This document shows positions 16,633 to 34,938 of a stretch of DNA of 34,938 nt, piece by piece (within the stretch, counting starts at the first letter, position 1; every line of letters begins with the position of its first letter). The notes beneath the pieces were generated by a model that worked only from the letters and a program-made list of their open reading frames with translations, searched no databases and was not told the origin of the DNA. Made by a program: the position numbers and the translations under genes. The stretch is from Candidatus Taylorbacteria bacterium RIFCSPHIGHO2_12_FULL_45_16 (GTDB lineage: Bacteria; Patescibacteriota; Minisyncoccia; Phycocordibacterales; PALSA-1337), in assembly GCA_001821055.1 (NCBI GenBank), contig MHRT01000001.1, positions 91,868 through 126,805 on the forward strand, written 5' to 3'.

Positions 16633-16669
16633 TTGACAGGAATATACCATAGTATATACTTTGGTATAT
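16633..16669 (+). promoter_or_regulatory. TA1 promoter/operator: TTGACA-N16-TATACT overlapped by palindrome ATATACCA-N12-TGGTATAT
   Basis: -35 16633-16638, -10 16655-16660; palindrome arms 16642-16649 and 16662-16669 (perfect 8 bp). Confidence 0.85.
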
Positions 16670-16946
16670 GACTACAAATACCAAGACACTTTTAACAGTA
16701 AAGACCGAAAAAAGCCTCAAACAAGCGGCGCAGGAGACCGCAGCCGAGCTCGGTTTTTCGCTCGGAACTCTTGTGAATGCGCTACTTAAACAATTTGTAC
16801 GTACCAAAGAGATTAATTTTTCCGCGTCATACACTCCAACTCCGTATCTTATTGCTGCTATTGAGGAAGCAGAAAAAGAATATGCTGAGGGTCGTTTACC
16901 CAAACCTCTTCCGCTCGATGAGTTTATTGCCAGACTTAATTCCTAA
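16668..16946 (+). CDS. RelB/DinJ-family antitoxin (TA1)
   Basis: TLLTVKTEKSLKQAAQETAAELGFSLGTLVNALLKQFVRTKEINFSASYTPTPYL (RHH-like N terminus); followed by a toxin gene. Confidence 0.85.
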   Translation: MTTNTKTLLTVKTEKSLKQAAQETAAELGFSLGTLVNALLKQFVRTKEINFSASYTPTPYLIAAIEEAEKEYAEGRLPKPLPLDEFIARLNS

Positions 16947-16963
16947 AATGTTTTACTACAGAC

Positions 16964-17227
16964 ATGCTTTTTACCCAGTCTTCACGTTTTGAGAAAGAAT
17001 ATAAGAAACTTCCCAAAAAGTTGAAGGATAAAATTGTTGAACGATTAAAGATCTTTGTCACCAACGAATTTGATCCGCTTCTAAATAACCACATGGTCAA
17101 GTATAAATATGAAGGACACAGAAGTATTAATCTGACTGGTGACTGGCGGATCTTATATAAGAAAATCGACCATAAAACCTATGAGCTATATGCAGTTGGT
17201 ACGCATCATCAATTGTTTGGGAAGTGA
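16964..17227 (+). CDS. RelE/YafQ-family mRNA interferase toxin (TA1)
   Basis: QSSRFEKEYKKLPKKLKDKIVERLKIF...LNNHMVKYKYEGHRSINLTGDWRILYK...AVGTHHQLFGK. Confidence 0.87.
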   Translation: MLFTQSSRFEKEYKKLPKKLKDKIVERLKIFVTNEFDPLLNNHMVKYKYEGHRSINLTGDWRILYKKIDHKTYELYAVGTHHQLFGK

Positions 17228-20239: not shown

Positions 20240-20276
20240 TTGACATCTGAATAACCGTTGTATATACTTCGGTTAT
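20240..20276 (+). promoter_or_regulatory. TA2 promoter/operator: TTGACA-N17-TATACT overlapped by palindrome ATAACCG-N12-CGGTTAT
   Basis: -35 20240-20245, -10 20263-20268; arms 20251-20257 and 20270-20276 (perfect 7 bp). Confidence 0.88.
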
Positions 20277-20547
20277 GAAAACAGTCATAAACATAAAAGT
20301 AGATCGTGATATCAAGGAACATGCTTTCAAGGTGGCGAAAAACATGGGCCTTCCTTTGAGCACCATTATCAACGCTTTCCTGAAGAAGTTCATCGCTGAC
20401 CAGAGTATCACTTTTACCGCGCCCCTCAAGCCCTCCAAGAATCTTGAGAAGATCCTGAAGAGAGCAGATAAGGATATAAAAATGGGTCGAAACCTGTCTC
20501 CGGTTTTTACGAATGTTGAAGATATGATGGCCTATCTCAATAAGTAA
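20275..20547 (+). CDS. RelB/DinJ-family antitoxin (TA2)
   Basis: MKTVINIKVDRDIKEHAFKVAKNMGLPLSTIINAFLKKFIADQSITFTA. Confidence 0.87.
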   Translation: MKTVINIKVDRDIKEHAFKVAKNMGLPLSTIINAFLKKFIADQSITFTAPLKPSKNLEKILKRADKDIKMGRNLSPVFTNVEDMMAYLNK

Positions 20548-20565
20548 TTTCCATGAAATATCTTA

Positions 20566-20832
20566 ATGAAAATAAGCGGATTCATATTGCACAAAGATTT
20601 CAAGAAAACCTTCTCGAAACTACAGCGGGGTATTAAAGATACCTTCGAAGAAAGATCTTCGATATTTATCTCACAACCGTCACATATAGTGCTCAACAAT
20701 CACCCTCTGGGCGGCACGTGGGAAGACCATTGGAGTATCAATATCACCGGAGACATAAGAGCGATTTACAGGATTGAAGAAAATATCGCGATTTTCGTGG
20801 CTATCAGGACACACGGTCAGCTATATAAATAG
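20566..20832 (+). CDS. RelE/YafQ-family mRNA interferase toxin (TA2)
   Basis: LHKDFKKTFSKLQRGIKDTFEERSSIF...LNNHPLGGTWEDHWSINITGDIRAIYR...AIRTHGQLYK. Confidence 0.87.
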   Translation: MKISGFILHKDFKKTFSKLQRGIKDTFEERSSIFISQPSHIVLNNHPLGGTWEDHWSINITGDIRAIYRIEENIAIFVAIRTHGQLYK

Positions 20833-20966: not shown

Positions 20967-23900
20967 ATGAAAAAATCAATTCTCTCGTTTGTTATCCCGC
21001 TAGCGGTCTTCACCCTTGTGGCTGTTCTCGTTGTGCCAGGTAATGTCGGGGCGCAAGTCACTATACCCACAATTCAAGTTGTTTCACCTAATGGTGGTGA
21101 GCATTACAATGTTGGAGATACCATAAAAATCATAGTCAGAACGTCAAACTTACCATCCTTGACAAAAGTTCAGGTAGCACTGTCATCCGCTGGGGGGATG
21201 AAGGCCCTCAATGATTTAAATGATAGAGCGGGTGCCATTGGAGATGAGTGGACTTTCTTGTACAAAGTTGATCACAGTTTTTTTGTGACGCCGACGAAGA
21301 TATATGCATGGTTATGGGGTCCCTACGTGTATAATCCTTTGTATGATGATTACAGCGATAATTATTTCACCATTTCAGATGTTACTAATCCCACAATCAA
21401 CATAACTTCCAATCCCAACACGATTATTTTGGGTGAATCTTCGGTAGTTTCTTGGACTGCAACAAGCGAGAAGATATGTAGCAATATTGTTAGCTGTACG
21501 AATACCCAAACAATATGCTCTAGCAATTTTTTCGGTATTTCTTCTTCGGAATCATTATCTGGTAGCCGAACAGTTATTCCGAAAACAATAGGAATTATCC
21601 CCTTTTCATTGATTTGTAAGGGCGTAAATGGGACGCTTGTGCAAGCGACAACTACTATTAGTGTTGACCCCGTACCGAGTCCTTCCGTCACCGTTATTTC
21701 GCCAAATGGAGGAGAAGAATTGCGGATAGGTAAGATGTACGAAATAAAATGGGACGGTAGAAACTTCCCGGCTGATAACATGGTCGGGATTGCACTTGTG
21801 AATGAGGCAACTGTGAACACGTATCTACATGATCTCACTAATTACCTCTTTGATAATAAAATAACTACAGGTTCCGTGAGTTGGACTGTTCCTGATACAA
21901 TCACTCCTGGCAAATATCGTCTAAGGATGTTTTGTGGAATAAATGGCACGGATCGTTATTGTAGTGAAGATGGCTCTCTCGACAGTAACCCTCAATCACA
22001 AGACTATAGTGATTCGTTTTTTACCATCACTTCCACTCCGCCAACTTCCTGCTACAACTTCAGCGTCAATCTCCAGATCGGTTCCCGTGGTGACGATGTA
22101 ACCGCACTTCAAAAGTTCCTCATAGCTAAGGGATTTTCCATTAGCGAAGGAGTCACGGGCTATTTTAGCTATGGAACATTTACCGCTTTAACAAAATACC
22201 AAAGAAGTGTCGGTCTTCCCGCAACCGGTTTCTTTGGTCCGTTGACTAGGGCGAAGGTAAATAAGGATTGTCAATCTACCCCTGTAATCAATATCTCCTG
22301 GAGTAATGGTACAGACAAGGTGCTTGTTGGTCTGGTTGATAGCAGGTTTGAGAAAGATGGAACAGTATTGGGATGGATTCTACTTGATCAGAAACCCAAT
22401 GGTTCATTTGCCTGGAATGGACAAAGTATAAGTGATCTGAGTGGAAAAGTATCGTGGCCACCGCTTTCTTTGTCTTCAGGGCCGTTTCGTATTATCGCGG
22501 TTACGGCAGGTTCCGGCAAAAATTATTGTTTAGATTATAAACCAGAGTGTAGTATTGTTCTCAGTGAATACTTTAATATCTCAAATGAAAAAATTGATAT
22601 TAGACTTGAACCATTTATTTCAAATCAAAATTACGTCACTGTCACCAATCCTAGCGCAGGTGAAGTTCTTCAGACTGGATTTCAGTACAAAATCATCTGG
22701 ACAACCAACTCTCTTGATAAGGATCAATTGTTTGATATTACGGAATTTTCCGATAGCGGTAAAAGTTTGATTGCCGAAGGGGTCACGACGATGAATTGCA
22801 CCCAAGTTGTCTATGTCAGACCTGGAGAAAATAAATATACCTGTATCACAGATTGGATTCCGAAACAGGTCTCGTCAAAATCCCGATTGGTTGTTAGCAA
22901 GCGTGGGACGAATGAAGTGGGATATTCGGGAAGTTTCTCTGTTGTATCTAAGACAGGTACAGGGCCTTCCATCACCGTCCTTTCGCCGAATGGGGGAGAA
23001 TCTTGGACAAGAGGGACGACTCAGACGATAAAGTGGAATGACAATACGCCTATTCCAGCCTGTCCGACTGGAGCATACTGCACCCAACCCGCCCCCAAAT
23101 CTTATGACGTCAAACTGGCTCCATATTATCCACCATGCACAGGAAGGGTATGTCCTGCTTATCCATACATTGCACCTTACCCAATCGCTATTGGTATAAG
23201 CAAGCCATCTTATGAGTGGAATGTTGGTCTTACCAAAGGCGACGTGACGGCTCCTGACGGTTCTTATAAAGTTCAAATATGTCAGACTGGCACAAACACT
23301 TGCGACTTCAGCGACTCTTTCTTCACCATAGATTCTCGAACTATCAAGCCATCCATCAGCATAACAAGCCCAAATGGTGGAGAGGTATGGTATGGGAATA
23401 ATTCATATCAGTTGAGATGGAGAAGTGTAAATATGCCCAATGATGGTTATTTGAGAGCTCTTCTCATCGCACGTGATGGATCAACCTTTGATTCTCTTGT
23501 AAATAAGAGTTCCCCAGGAGAGATTTGTGTAATTGCCACTGAAGCGAATAAATCTTGTGTATCAATAAATTCTGGTTCTGTAACAATTCCGATTCTTGAT
23601 GGCTGGATAACCCCAGGTGAATATAAAGTTCGAATTGGTTGTTTTAAAATGAACTCACAAATTCCTTGTACAAATTATTTTGGTGAGACAGGAGATGAAA
23701 GCGATTCTTATTTCACTATTGCTTCTGAAATTTCCACCAACCCTCCTCCAACTCCTATACCCACTCCAACACCAACCCCAGTAAACCTCATCACTTCCTT
23801 CACTCAAGGCACGGCATATTCCTACGACAACTTCACAAAATCAGGCAACAGCATCACTTCAGCCGTTGAATCATCTGCCAATATCGGTGGAGCCATCTCC

Positions 23901-25810: not shown

Positions 25811-25890
25811 TTGTATTTGATAATGCACGTTCAAAACCTCATGTTGCTTTTGCCTTGCTTCTTGTCATATTTAACCCTACAATGATATCC

Positions 25891-26499
25891 ATGAAAAATC
25901 ACCCAAAATACGAGCGCACGCTAGTCATTATTAAACCAGATGGAATACAACGCTCACTCGTCGGCGAAGTCATCAAGCGTTATGAGCAGATAGGATTGAA
26001 GCTGACGGCCATAAAAATGATGGTTGCCACGCCGGAATTGATCGAAAAACATTATACTCTTGATCCGGAATGGCGTACGGTGACAGGTCTGAAGACTATC
26101 AAAGGCTATAAGGACAAAGGTATGAAGCCACCATCGGAGGACCCGCATGAAATAACGACTAAGATCTTAAAAAATCTTATAAGATATATGACAAGCGGTC
26201 CGATTGTGGCTATGGTTTGGGAGGGCGCGCATGCAGTTGCTATCGTGCGCAAACTGACGGGCGGTACCGAACCCCTAACATCAGATGCTGGTACCATCAG
26301 AGGCGACTTTGTGATGGATTCCTACAAAATGTCGGATGATGATGGAAGGTCAGTCAGGAATATTGTTCACGCCTCGGGATCATCCAAAGAGGCCGAAGAT
26401 GAAATCAAGCATTGGTTCAAACCGGAGGAAGTTATAAGATACAAATCAATCCAAGAAAAAATACTTTATGATGTCAATCTGGATGGAATATTAGAATAA
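25891..26499 (+). CDS. ndk: Nucleoside diphosphate kinase (extended form)
   Basis: ERTLVIIKPDGIQRSLVGEVIKRYEQIGLKLTAIKMM, YMTSGPIVAMVWEGAHAVAIVRKLTGGTEP, GTIRGDF, NIVHASGSSKEAEDEIKHWF. Confidence 0.93.
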   Translation: MKNHPKYERTLVIIKPDGIQRSLVGEVIKRYEQIGLKLTAIKMMVATPELIEKHYTLDPEWRTVTGLKTIKGYKDKGMKPPSEDPHEITTKILKNLIRYMTSGPIVAMVWEGAHAVAIVRKLTGGTEPLTSDAGTIRGDFVMDSYKMSDDDGRSVRNIVHASGSSKEAEDEIKHWFKPEEVIRYKSIQEKILYDVNLDGILE

Positions 26500-26583
26500 A
26501 TTATTGCATATAGCACAACATCGTGTTGCGACTTCTTGTACACCTTTTATCAACTTGTTTTTTGTTCGGCGTATAATACAATT

Positions 26584-26790
26584 AACACAGGTTACGAAGT
26601 ATTAACCCTATACCACATTATTTGGGATCCCAAAGAACTTCGGTTCAAATTAGATCGCACCTTGGTGTTGATTTTGAGGGAACCCACCTAGTTCATCTAG
26701 GTTAAGCAATACTTCGTAGCCAACCAAAGAATCTCCCTGAAGTCCGTTTGTCGTTGGCAAGCGAGGCTGGTTATAGGGGATTTTTTGATT
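26584..26790 (+). ncRNA. Candidate structured non-coding RNA (~205 nt), family not recognised
   Basis: TATAAT at 26572-26577; 14-bp closing stem GGTTACGAAGTATT/AATACTTCGTAGCC (26590-26603 / 26708-26721); internal hairpins incl. GAAC-UUCG-GUUC; 3' stem followed by TTTTTT. No good ORF. Confidence 0.6.
26730..26786 (+). terminator. Terminator-like stem with T-tract at the 3' end of the ncRNA candidate
   Basis: AATC(T)CCCT ... AGGGGATT followed by TTTTTT; branched, with internal hairpin TCGTT-GGCA-AGCGA. Confidence 0.55.
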
Positions 26791-26819
26791 TATGGACTGA
26801 AAACACCTATACTTAACCG

Positions 26820-27185
26820 ATGCTTTCATATATTTTTGCTTTTGTCATTCTCACTATCGTTTTGATTGGTAACATCTTGGGACCGGAAATCACGCATATA
26901 AGCATGAGATACTACGATAGTATATTGCATATGCTTGCCGGCGCGGGTTTGGGGTTCTTTATATTGGCACTGATGTCAACACTAAAGTTAGGGCGCTGGC
27001 GCACAATCTTTGATGTCACTTTCGGTATGTTACTTTTGGGCATCATCTGGGAATTATTTGAAATTTACTTCAATATTACTGGATATGAATTGTGGAGCAC
27101 GATGTATTACTTTGACACGGTCAAGGATCTTATATTGGACGTGGTCGGAGCGGCATTGGTGGCTTTCATTATTATAAAAAAGTAA
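26820..27185 (+). CDS. Small multi-pass membrane protein (DUF2238/VanZ-like appearance), unknown function
   Basis: MRYYDSILHMLAGAGLGFFIL, GIIWELFEIYF, DTVKDLILDVVGAALVA; TTGATT-N17-TATACT promoter at 26785-26813. Confidence 0.6.
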   Translation: MLSYIFAFVILTIVLIGNILGPEITHISMRYYDSILHMLAGAGLGFFILALMSTLKLGRWRTIFDVTFGMLLLGIIWELFEIYFNITGYELWSTMYYFDTVKDLILDVVGAALVAFIIIKK

Positions 27186-27188
27186 TAC

Positions 27189-28562
27189 ATGTCTAATAAG
27201 CTTACGGTTACATTTTGCAGTGGGGTCGGCACGGTTACGGGCGCTAATTTTCTACTTGAAACGGAGAAGTCAAAAATATTGATTGATTGTGGCATGATTC
27301 AAGGCGAAAAGTTTGCCACAGAAGAAAACTCCAAGTTATTTTCCTATGATATTCCCACGATTGATGCTCTTCTAGTCACTCATGCGCATCTGGATCATGT
27401 AGGTCGTATCCCGAAATTGGTTAAAGAAGGTTATCTGGGACCTATCTATTCAACGCCAAAAACAAAAGAGTTGGCTGAAATTGTCTTGACTGACGCAGTT
27501 GGCATTTTGGCGTTGGAAGCGAAACAGAATGGCACATTGCCACTTTATGGGATAGAAGATGTGGAGATGGTTTTTATGTCTTGGAAAACTATTCCATATC
27601 ATCAGGAAGTCAAGATAGTGGATGATATTTCGGTTGTTCTAAAAGACTCGGGACATATACTGGGATCAGCGATGATTGAGGTTACTGTACGAGGTCCAGC
27701 CTCGCGCAAGATTTTATTTACCGGCGATTTGGGAAATTCACCGGCGCCACTTCTAAGAGACACGGAAGAGGTCGACGATGTTGATTTTATAATCATGGAA
27801 AGCGTCTATGGCGACCGTAATCATGAGCCGAAGGAGCTCCGATTGCGGCAGTTTGAAAAAGTGATTGACGATACTCTTGCTCGAGGTGGAACCTTGGTTA
27901 TACCAGCCTTTTCAATAGATCGCACGCAGGTTCTTCTTTACGAGCTGAACAATCTGGTTGAACAAAAGAAAATACCATCGGTGCCGGTTTTCGTGGACTC
28001 ACCGATGGCGATCAAAGCTACGGAGATCTATCAGTCAAGTCCGGAATTGTTCAATGATAAGGTACGACAACAGATCAAAAATGGTGATAATATTTTCAGC
28101 TTTCCACATTTGCAGTTCACCGTTTCTCAAAATGAGTCACGTGATATCGAGCGATTGCGGGGCGCGAAAATAATCCTGGCCGGTTCGGGCATGTCAGTCG
28201 GTGGTCGGGTCTTGAGCCATGAAGAAGACTTTCTGCCTGACCCAAAGAACACGATTCTTCTAGTCGGTTATCAGACGGCAGGTTCTCTGGGGCGCCAATT
28301 GGCCAATGGGGCGAAGAAAGTCAGCATTCACGGACGAACCATCAAAGTGAAGGCCCATATTGAGACTATTTACGGTTATTCGGCCCACAAAGACAGCGAT
28401 CATCTAGTTGAATTTGTGACAACAGCCAGCGATCGGTTGAAACAAATTTTTGTTGTGATGGGCGAGCTGAAGGCGTCGATGCACTTAGCTCAGAGGTTGA
28501 ATGATGAGTTGATGGTAAAAGCAATCGTACCGGAGAGGGAGAGGGGGTATGAGTTGGAATAG
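27189..28562 (+). CDS. MBL-fold/beta-CASP RNA-processing exonuclease (YSH1/CPSF-like)
   Basis: LLVTHAHLDHVGRIPKLV, FTGDLGNSPAPLL, TLVIPAFSIDRTQVLLYEL, FVDSPMAIKATEIY, LAGSGMSVGGRVLSHEE, HGRTIKVKAHIETIYGYSAHKDSDHLV. Confidence 0.94.
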   Translation: MSNKLTVTFCSGVGTVTGANFLLETEKSKILIDCGMIQGEKFATEENSKLFSYDIPTIDALLVTHAHLDHVGRIPKLVKEGYLGPIYSTPKTKELAEIVLTDAVGILALEAKQNGTLPLYGIEDVEMVFMSWKTIPYHQEVKIVDDISVVLKDSGHILGSAMIEVTVRGPASRKILFTGDLGNSPAPLLRDTEEVDDVDFIIMESVYGDRNHEPKELRLRQFEKVIDDTLARGGTLVIPAFSIDRTQVLLYELNNLVEQKKIPSVPVFVDSPMAIKATEIYQSSPELFNDKVRQQIKNGDNIFSFPHLQFTVSQNESRDIERLRGAKIILAGSGMSVGGRVLSHEEDFLPDPKNTILLVGYQTAGSLGRQLANGAKKVSIHGRTIKVKAHIETIYGYSAHKDSDHLVEFVTTASDRLKQIFVVMGELKASMHLAQRLNDELMVKAIVPERERGYELE

Positions 28563-33225: not shown

Positions 33226-33586
33226 GGGGATGATCGGCATAGACAGCAGATCATGTTCATTCGTGCGGCGTGAGCACCATTAACTCGTAAATCTGATGGA
33301 AAACCTAAATGCTAAAACAACCTCACCGTATTTTACGGCCAAGGACTTTGCATTCGCTCTTGCATAAAGAGCGCGCCCGCTCCTGGGGATTCTGACTAGG
33401 AGATCGGGTGTTATAACCTGAATGTAGGGAAGACGGGGATTCTCGACCCGTTGCCCGAAACAAAGAGATCGCGACTGCGTGTTTCGTTCGCTTTATAGCG
33501 TAGTCGTCAAACTTCAAAGCTTTCTACCGCCGTAGAATCGTTCGACACATATCTGTTGCACCCGGGTTCGATTCCCGGCATCTCCA
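33226..33586 (+). ncRNA. ssrA: Transfer-messenger RNA (tmRNA)
   Basis: GGGGATG...CATCTCC-A acceptor stem, T-arm CCGGGTTCGATTCCCGG, tag ORF ending ...KDFAFALA-TAA; adjacent to smpB. 3' CCA not encoded (CTA). Confidence 0.93.
33299..33367 (+). other. tmRNA proteolysis tag frame: ENLNAKTTSPYFTAKDFAFALA-stop
   Basis: Read directly; resume codon uncertain by a codon or so. Confidence 0.75.
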
Positions 33587-34938
33587 CTAGCGAGCCTTTT
33601 TGAGCCTCTGGGAGGGTAAATACCCTTAGAGGTAGCGACAGAATAGCGGTTTCAAACCCGCTTTTTCTGTTATAGGTCAATTTCTGCTCAAAAACCAGTT
33701 TGAGAACAAGCTTTTTCCTATGTATGTCTCCTGTCTCCCATTGTTTCAAAGGGTTTCTCAGAAAATCAAAAACAATTTCAAGAGCGGTTTCAATGTTCGG
33801 TCTATGTTGGTTCACTGACTTGACAGAATTTTTTAGAACCAACTCCTTTTCCATGAGTTCACTTATTCTTGTTTCATAGATTGCAACCATTCTATCTTCG
33901 GTCGTTCGAGATATTCTCTCAAGTAGTTTATTTCTTTCATCTTGCAAGGTTCTTATTTCTCCTTCGGTTCGTCTGGCTCTCGAAGCTACTCCTAACTCTT
34001 TCTTTTTCCACAAGTCACTAACTATCGCTTTGGTAAGTTCAAGAACTTGTTTGCTAGGTTTGATATTGTCTAATATAGCAACGAACTCCTTATCGATATT
34101 TTTTCTTGCTATGCTTTTGTTTCTTTCATCACAACCATTAGTCTTACAGCGATAGTATGGGAATCTGCCATTTCGACCTGTGCTCCAACTTGCTGTCATG
34201 GGTTGTTTGCAACAAGAACAAAGAACGAAACCTCTCAAAGGAAAATCTGGATTGAGAAGGTTCTTAACAAATGTTGTTGTCTTTTCTTTGAGGCGTTGTT
34301 GAATTATTTCATGTATAGAGAAATCAATAATCGGTTCATGGTCTGACTTTCTCATGCTTACTTCCCACGGAAGAAATTCAAGAAAACCTGCGTAGAAAAG
34401 ACTGTTACTTAATATCCTTTTTACGAATTCCAGATAGACTGGCTTACTGTTATTGATACTGTTAAGCAGTAAGAATCTCTGGACATCAACCTGTTCTTGA
34501 AATCTGCCAGAGGCAAAGCCTTCTAAGGCTTCCTTAACTATTTTAGCTTCTGGTTGAGGGGTAGCAACTGATAGATTACTCAAATTCTTTTTATATTTAT
34601 AACCAACCGCTAAACTTGGTAGGCAATAATGTCCTTGTTCAAGTCTGGCTCTCATCTTCTGCATTACTTGCCGTCTGTTTTGCTCACGCTCAAGCTCTCC
34701 AGTTGCCGCCATGATAGTTTCCACATATTTACCCTCTGGCGAGTCGGTAAAGACGAAATTAGGGCATTCTACACTAGCCTTACGCACTTTTATTGCCGTT
34801 TTAAGTTTCAAGTAATACTCTGTATCTCGAGCAAGTCTTTTGAGGTCATCGAAAATAATTACATAGTTGTTATAAGGCTTTTCATCCATGTAGCCAAGCA
34901 TCTCTGACATGGCGGGTCTTTTCATAAAGTCTCCGCCA
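33507..34938 (-). CDS. Large serine recombinase (Resolvase/Recombinase/zinc-ribbon family), N terminus beyond the window
   Basis: DDLKRLARDTEYYLKLKTAI, NFVFTDSPEGKYVETIMAATGELEREQNRRQV, GFVLCSCCKQPMTASWSTGRNGRFPYYRCKTNGC, coiled-coil C terminus; upstream codons GGDF-MKRPAM remain open to the window edge, so the tracked ATG is probably internal. Confidence 0.9.
   Translation of the reverse strand, partial: GGDFMKRPAMSEMLGYMDEKPYNNYVIIFDDLKRLARDTEYYLKLKTAIKVRKASVECPNFVFTDSPEGKYVETIMAATGELEREQNRRQVMQKMRARLEQGHYCLPSLAVGYKYKKNLSNLSVATPQPEAKIVKEALEGFASGRFQEQVDVQRFLLLNSINNSKPVYLEFVKRILSNSLFYAGFLEFLPWEVSMRKSDHEPIIDFSIHEIIQQRLKEKTTTFVKNLLNPDFPLRGFVLCSCCKQPMTASWSTGRNGRFPYYRCKTNGCDERNKSIARKNIDKEFVAILDNIKPSKQVLELTKAIVSDLWKKKELGVASRARRTEGEIRTLQDERNKLLERISRTTEDRMVAIYETRISELMEKELVLKNSVKSVNQHRPNIETALEIVFDFLRNPLKQWETGDIHRKKLVLKLVFEQKLTYNRKSGFETAILSLPLRVFTLPEAQKGSLVEMPGIEPGCNRYVSNDSTAVESFEV

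Follow-up and report, generated by a model that had tools for sequence, protein, structure and literature searches.

A small RNA gene downstream of ndk in Patescibacteria, very probably a 6S RNA too diverged for the Rfam model to recognise

Introduction

What does the gap from the ndk stop (26499) to the start of the next gene (26820) encode in Candidatus Taylorbacteria bacterium RIFCSPHIGHO2_12_FULL_45_16? All positions refer to the window, the whole 34,938-nt stretch of contig MHRT01000001.1 that was analysed. The original prediction had placed an unrecognised structured non-coding RNA in this gap and had leaned away from 6S RNA on account of a multibranched layout.

In canonical 6S RNA an outer stem closes the molecule, the product-RNA start lies in a large central bulge on the 5’ side, a hairpin faces this bulge, and a further stem forms the apex (PMC8414754). 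The central bulge is commonly reported to hold a small stem-loop on its 3’ side (PMC10406553), and a bulge-side hairpin is also described (PMC8414754). In shape the RNA is similar to an open promoter; it binds polymerase that carries sigma, and synthesis of the product RNA releases it (PMC9130861). Our literature search, the coverage of which was incomplete, found no paper on 6S RNA in Patescibacteria, the Candidate Phyla Radiation or Saccharibacteria.

Results

A small RNA gene between ndk and its downstream neighbour

The window contains a real small RNA gene, with the following surroundings:

25855 to 26499, plus strand: ndk, nucleoside diphosphate kinase (Pfam NDK), the upstream neighbour
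26524 to 26533, plus strand: upstream element TGTYNCAACT (here TGTTGCGACT), the window’s best-scoring site; a putative regulator or UP-type site
26555 to 26560, plus strand: -35-like box TTGTTT, 16 nt 5’ of the -10 box; relatives have TTGCAA or TTGCGC at equal spacing
26577 to 26582, plus strand: -10 box TACAAT; TAnAAT lies ~11 nt 5’ of P1 in nearly all order-level homologues
26588 to 26787, plus strand: predicted 6S RNA transcript of ~200 nt, from the model match (26588-26723) through the terminator to the T run; both ends predicted
26725 to 26787, plus strand: terminator hairpin and T run, a separate hairpin (fold z = -4.0)
26820 to 27185, plus strand: gene for a small membrane protein; a separate promoter, TTGATT-N17-TATACT, lies just before the ATG
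27189 to 28562, plus strand: beta-CASP metallo-beta-lactamase, RNase J/CPSF-like (Pfam Beta-Casp, RMMBL), the downstream neighbour

The core of the RNA (26588-26723) folds at -44.7 kcal/mol, whereas dinucleotide shuffles average -25.9 (z = -6.0) and none of 200 folded as well. The whole stretch 26584-26790 reached z = -5.9. An RNA on the antisense strand was rejected, since the fold there is weaker (z = -1.7) and the antisense model matches resemble mirror effects of the helices. Together with a promoter conserved in register, a separate terminator, and conservation and covariation among relatives, this fold bears out the claim that the gap encodes a structured non-coding RNA.

Across relatives the promoter layout stays in register as TAnAAT-N5-P1, which moves the -10 box from the TATAAT at 26572, as originally proposed, to TACAAT at 26577-26582. 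Its assignment rests on conservation, since this promoter was missed by the consensus promoter scan. Further upstream, TGTYNCAACT lies 53-54 nt 5’ of the RNA in nine genus loci (L003, L006, L007, L008, L010, L014, L016, L028 and L038) and 64 nt 5’ of it in the window; throughout the genus it sits ~20 nt 5’ of the -35 box and is a candidate binding site for a regulator. At the other end of the gene, the stem running into the T run was found as predicted, in the form of a separate hairpin; a hairpin and T run occupy the terminator position in all order-level homologues inspected, with unrelated sequences.

The gene neighbourhood is conserved within the order and lost outside it

In 36 of 38 order loci ndk lies directly upstream on the same strand, and in 35 of 38 the beta-CASP metallo-beta-lactamase lies downstream, often with the small membrane protein gene (no Pfam match) in between. 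A conserved order of this kind, with an RNA that ends in a terminator, is what one would see if the element were a cis-acting, riboswitch-like leader or attenuator of the membrane protein or metallo-beta-lactamase gene, or simply the 3’ end of ndk. Against such a reading, which is almost certainly wrong, stand a promoter box whose distance to P1 is constant and a terminator behind the RNA, as well as the downstream gene’s own promoter just before its ATG, which the promoter scan located as originally described. Moreover, outside the order the metallo-beta-lactamase was found at 0 of 29 phylum loci and ndk at 1 of 29 while the RNA was retained, as expected for an independent gene.

As a separate observation, TATAAT or TATACT occurs only ~5-12 nt before the ATG of downstream genes (26820 in the window; loci L002, L003, L004, L010 and L016), a spacing that suggests leaderless mRNAs in this lineage.

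Every helix covaries

The RNA comprises the following structural parts:

26590 to 26603, plus strand: P1 closing stem, 5’ strand (fold); every pair covaries
26604 to 26623, plus strand: 5’ central bulge of 20 nt, unpaired in the fold; U26611 is the predicted template of the product-RNA start
26624 to 26631, plus strand: P2 of the apical arm, 5’ strand GGGAUCCC; GGG near-invariant in 94 sequences, inner pairs covary
26635 to 26646, plus strand: P3, side hairpin GAAC-UUCG-GUUC, lineage-specific; covaries where present, often missing outside the family
26653 to 26673, plus strand: P4, apical hairpin GAUC.CAC-CUUG-GUG..GAUU with a CUUG loop; 9/9 pairs covary
26678 to 26685, plus strand: P2, 3’ strand GGGAACCC, the partner of 26624-26631 (covariation, fold)
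26686 to 26702, plus strand: P5, hairpin ACCUAG-UUCAU-CUAGGU on the 3’ side of the central bulge; near-invariant ACC/GG, covarying pairs
26708 to 26721, plus strand: P1 closing stem, 3’ strand (fold; covariation)

Folding recovered the 14-bp closing helix with its single G-U pair, and the inner hairpins P3, P4 and P5 fell at the positions predicted for them. The exception was GGGAUCCC, which had been read as a self-hairpin; its partner is instead GGGAACCC, the two forming helix P2 with one A-A mismatch, in agreement with the covariation.

Searching 60 related genomes with blastn yielded homologues in the genus, family and order, all of which follow one plan: TAnAAT, P1, an A/U-rich bulge, P2 with its A-A mismatch, an optional P3, P4, P5, P1 and the terminator. 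When present, P3 ranges from 12 nt to very long, and the P4 loop is of the CUUG type. Covariation, which the original prediction had put forward as a check, proved strong in every helix among order-level relatives: in 40 such sequences, 95.7% of pair cells were standard, and both partners vary in 34 of 38 pairs. The covariation score of these sequences was 0.640 (0.191 when shuffled, at most 0.083 with slid partners), and that of 94 phylum sequences was 0.714 (at most 0.098 with slid partners), in alignments that were structure-fitted, a bias favouring the structure, and with a large contrast to the controls. Compensatory changes in P2 and P5 were also seen in unaligned sequences.

A single-copy gene, nearly universal in the order

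Searches were run with three models of the RNA itself, which score the stretch 26588-26723 at 85.2 (R1), 97.1 (R2) and 85.5 bits (R3). Counted as lower bounds, with 10-12 candidates scored per genome, R1, built from five genus members, found the RNA in at least 39 of 297 order genomes, and the final model R3 in at least 231 of 297, with one copy per genome save for rare exceptions. Within the genus the RNA occurs in 30 of 35 genomes, always in single copy. The RNA is thus single-copy and nearly universal in the order of the window organism. Weak matches were also returned on a Pontiellaceae MAG contig (L114, 34.1 bits) and a Firmicutes MAG contig (L115, 31.3 bits), both of which are likely misbinned Patescibacteria contigs.

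Independent models connect the RNA to the 6S family

Rfam 15 gave no match at the locus even at E ≤ 5 (26450-26950), and the Rfam 6S model, RF00013, matched in 0 of 61 relatives’ genomes and nowhere else in the organism’s own genome, which therefore holds no rival 6S RNA. In this sense the RNA was rightly called unrecognised; it is, however, very probably not an RNA of a new kind but a far-diverged 6S RNA (ssrS) that lies beyond the reach of the Rfam model.

The connection comes from more distant relatives. R2 was built solely from order-level relatives of the window RNA, without any 6S input, and was run alongside RF00013 on the same 335 Patescibacteria genomes spread over the phylum. R2 matched at least 84 of these, a lower bound; RF00013 matched 29 at E < 0.005, five of them above the gathering score, with nothing in the window’s own order. 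In all 21 genomes where both models reached E < 0.01, they coincided in place and strand (e.g., G612:C12, R2 at 21011-21125 and RF00013 at 20991-21145), and with laxer filters R2 recovered 10 of the 10 Rfam-6S loci on which it was tried, at E-values of 0.0085 or better. RF00013 was also the sole recurrent Rfam family on 20 phylum loci of R2, and no family recurred at the RNA locus in 20 order loci. At some coincident loci the RF00013 alignments are full-length and exceed the gathering score. We observe, then, besides the gene, its structure and its conservation, a continuity with Rfam 6S.

The alignments locate what is shared. A core, GGGA...ACCCACCU..AGG, is common to this RNA and 6S and aligns to the 6S consensus, where GGGag...gcaCCCACCUggaAcagCaGG stands opposite GGGA...ACCCACCUAG...CUAGG of these RNAs; the conserved RF00013 core GGGag..gcaCCCACCU..AGG is present by Rfam alignments and column frequencies. 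The window’s version reads GGGAUCCC...GGGAACCCACCUAGUUCAUCUAGG, and E. coli ssrS has CACCUUGAAC...GGUUCAAGG at the same model positions. P5 aligns to CCCACCUgg..CaGG of Rfam 6S. By fold and covariation the RNA has the closing stem, large 5’ central bulge and apical stem of the 6S architecture (as defined in PMC8414754); the hairpin opposite the 5’ bulge, common though not universal in 6S, corresponds to P5 with its covarying pairs; and a conserved promoter box and a terminator were observed, such as a putative independent transcript of ~180-200 nt would have. The branching that had seemed foreign to 6S comes from P5, the bulge’s 3’-side hairpin, together with the lineage-specific P3, and the original lean away from 6S does not survive the matching of related phylum loci by both the RNA’s own model and the Rfam 6S model.

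Because RF00013 misses the window and R3 gave no meaningful match to E. coli ssrS, the homology to 6S is transitive. These two gaps, along with the branched apical arm, would fit a distinct new family that has converged on 6S in nothing but the short GGGA...ACCCACCU core. Such a family is very improbable, given that independent models coincide at 21 of 21 loci, that some of the alignments are full-length and over the gathering score, and that the order of elements is identical throughout. Also weighing against 6S identity are the short, 14-bp closing stem, the branched apical arm and a product-RNA start motif that shows no enrichment among 94 homologues.

Compared with canonical 6S/SsrS (RF00013; E. 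coli, B. subtilis), the RNA shares the closing stem, large 5’ central bulge, 3’-side hairpin, apical arm and core, and is likewise a single-copy gene, with a predicted independent transcript of ~200 nt. It differs in that RF00013 is blind in this order, that its 14-bp closing stem is followed by a separate terminator, that its apical arm carries the extra P3, and that its neighbours are ndk and the beta-CASP nuclease gene. The Patescibacteria 6S RNAs that Rfam does recognise (e.g., in G612, G539 and G384), on which RF00013 and the window RNA’s own model coincide, differ from it in a longer closing stem, a -10 box further upstream, the lack of P3 and other neighbours. In other classes, too, the closing stem is longer, and the -10 box lies mostly ~20-30 nt upstream of the modelled start.

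A further candidate is a relative of Ms1 RNA, a 6S-shaped RNA on core polymerase without sigma that would store polymerase rather than block promoters. Ms1 is structurally related to 6S, which it replaces in Actinobacteria; it is polymerase-associated, has a central bubble and occurs where Rfam 6S is absent (PMC9130861). However, where Rfam matches these RNAs in the phylum, it does so specifically with its 6S model. Ms1, at ~300 nt, also exceeds the ~200 nt predicted here with the terminator included, carries additional terminal hairpins (PMC9130861) and binds core polymerase, and no sequence link to it was found. An Ms1-like RNA thus appears improbable, and 6S remains the preferred reading.

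Other RNAs and features of the window

RNase P RNA, tmRNA and tRNA had been considered for the locus and gave no Rfam match there, nor did SRP RNA. RNase P RNA is encoded elsewhere (G000:C10:7242-7701); it and its relatives scored above the Rfam gathering score in 14 of 61 genomes, and, being mostly below this score, it indicates that standard RNA models underperform in this order generally. The only Rfam 15 match in the window is the tmRNA at 33226-33589 (tag peptide AKTTSPYFTAKDFAFALA), into which the 3’ end of a long recombinase-like ORF on the minus strand (33507-34925) extends; the ORF may belong to an element that has integrated at the tmRNA gene. The window also contains two small-gene pairs (16668-17227 and 20275-20832), each with an antitoxin-like protein followed by a protein of 87-88 aa, which, judged by eye from the translations, resemble RelB/RelE-type toxin-antitoxin modules.

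A predicted product RNA and mode of action

The E. coli product start, which we take to be template U44 of ssrS, projects through the Rfam alignments onto U26611, for a predicted product 5’-AUAGGGUUAAUACUUCG. This product has GG at positions 4/5 and 5/6, AA at 9/10 and a template adenine beside the start, which are reported hallmarks (PMC8414754). As a general rule the prediction of the product start is weak, because no enrichment of a conserved start motif was found among the 94 homologues across the phylum.

Polymerase binding, sequestration, release, product-RNA synthesis and the exact product start are what we infer by analogy with known 6S RNAs. Downstream of ndk, a promoter of its own would drive transcription of the RNA by itself, up to its own terminator ~200 nt on. 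It would mimic an open promoter, with P1 in the place of the downstream DNA duplex and the P2/P4 arm in that of the upstream one; the melted region would correspond to the bulge at 26604-26623 and the P5 side facing it. In this form the RNA would bind and hold RNA polymerase holoenzyme with the housekeeping sigma factor, and it would be released once polymerase copied the bulge and P1 into the short product RNA. That the 6S RNAs of Patescibacteria have, phylum-wide, branched off from this canonical action, for example by holding core polymerase or by lacking product-RNA release, seems unlikely.

Discussion

The kind of RNA described here is already known, and Rfam recognises some of its Patescibacteria members. 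New are its phylum-wide extent and its near-universal presence in an order where the Rfam model sees nothing, as well as an apical arm bearing the side hairpin P3, a short closing stem with the RNA’s own terminator behind it, and the conserved ndk-6S-metallo-beta-lactamase neighbourhood. Also new is a seed alignment for the lineage, a basis for a better family model: RF00013 sees 6S in about one in ten of the sampled phylum genomes and in none of the 61 around the window’s genome.

6S RNA restrains transcription globally, and Patescibacteria are a very large group of mostly uncultured bacteria with reduced genomes. The predicted product RNAs can be searched for directly in existing metatranscriptomes. 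That the gene is nearly universal and single-copy in this order suggests that such control of polymerase is retained even in minimal genomes.
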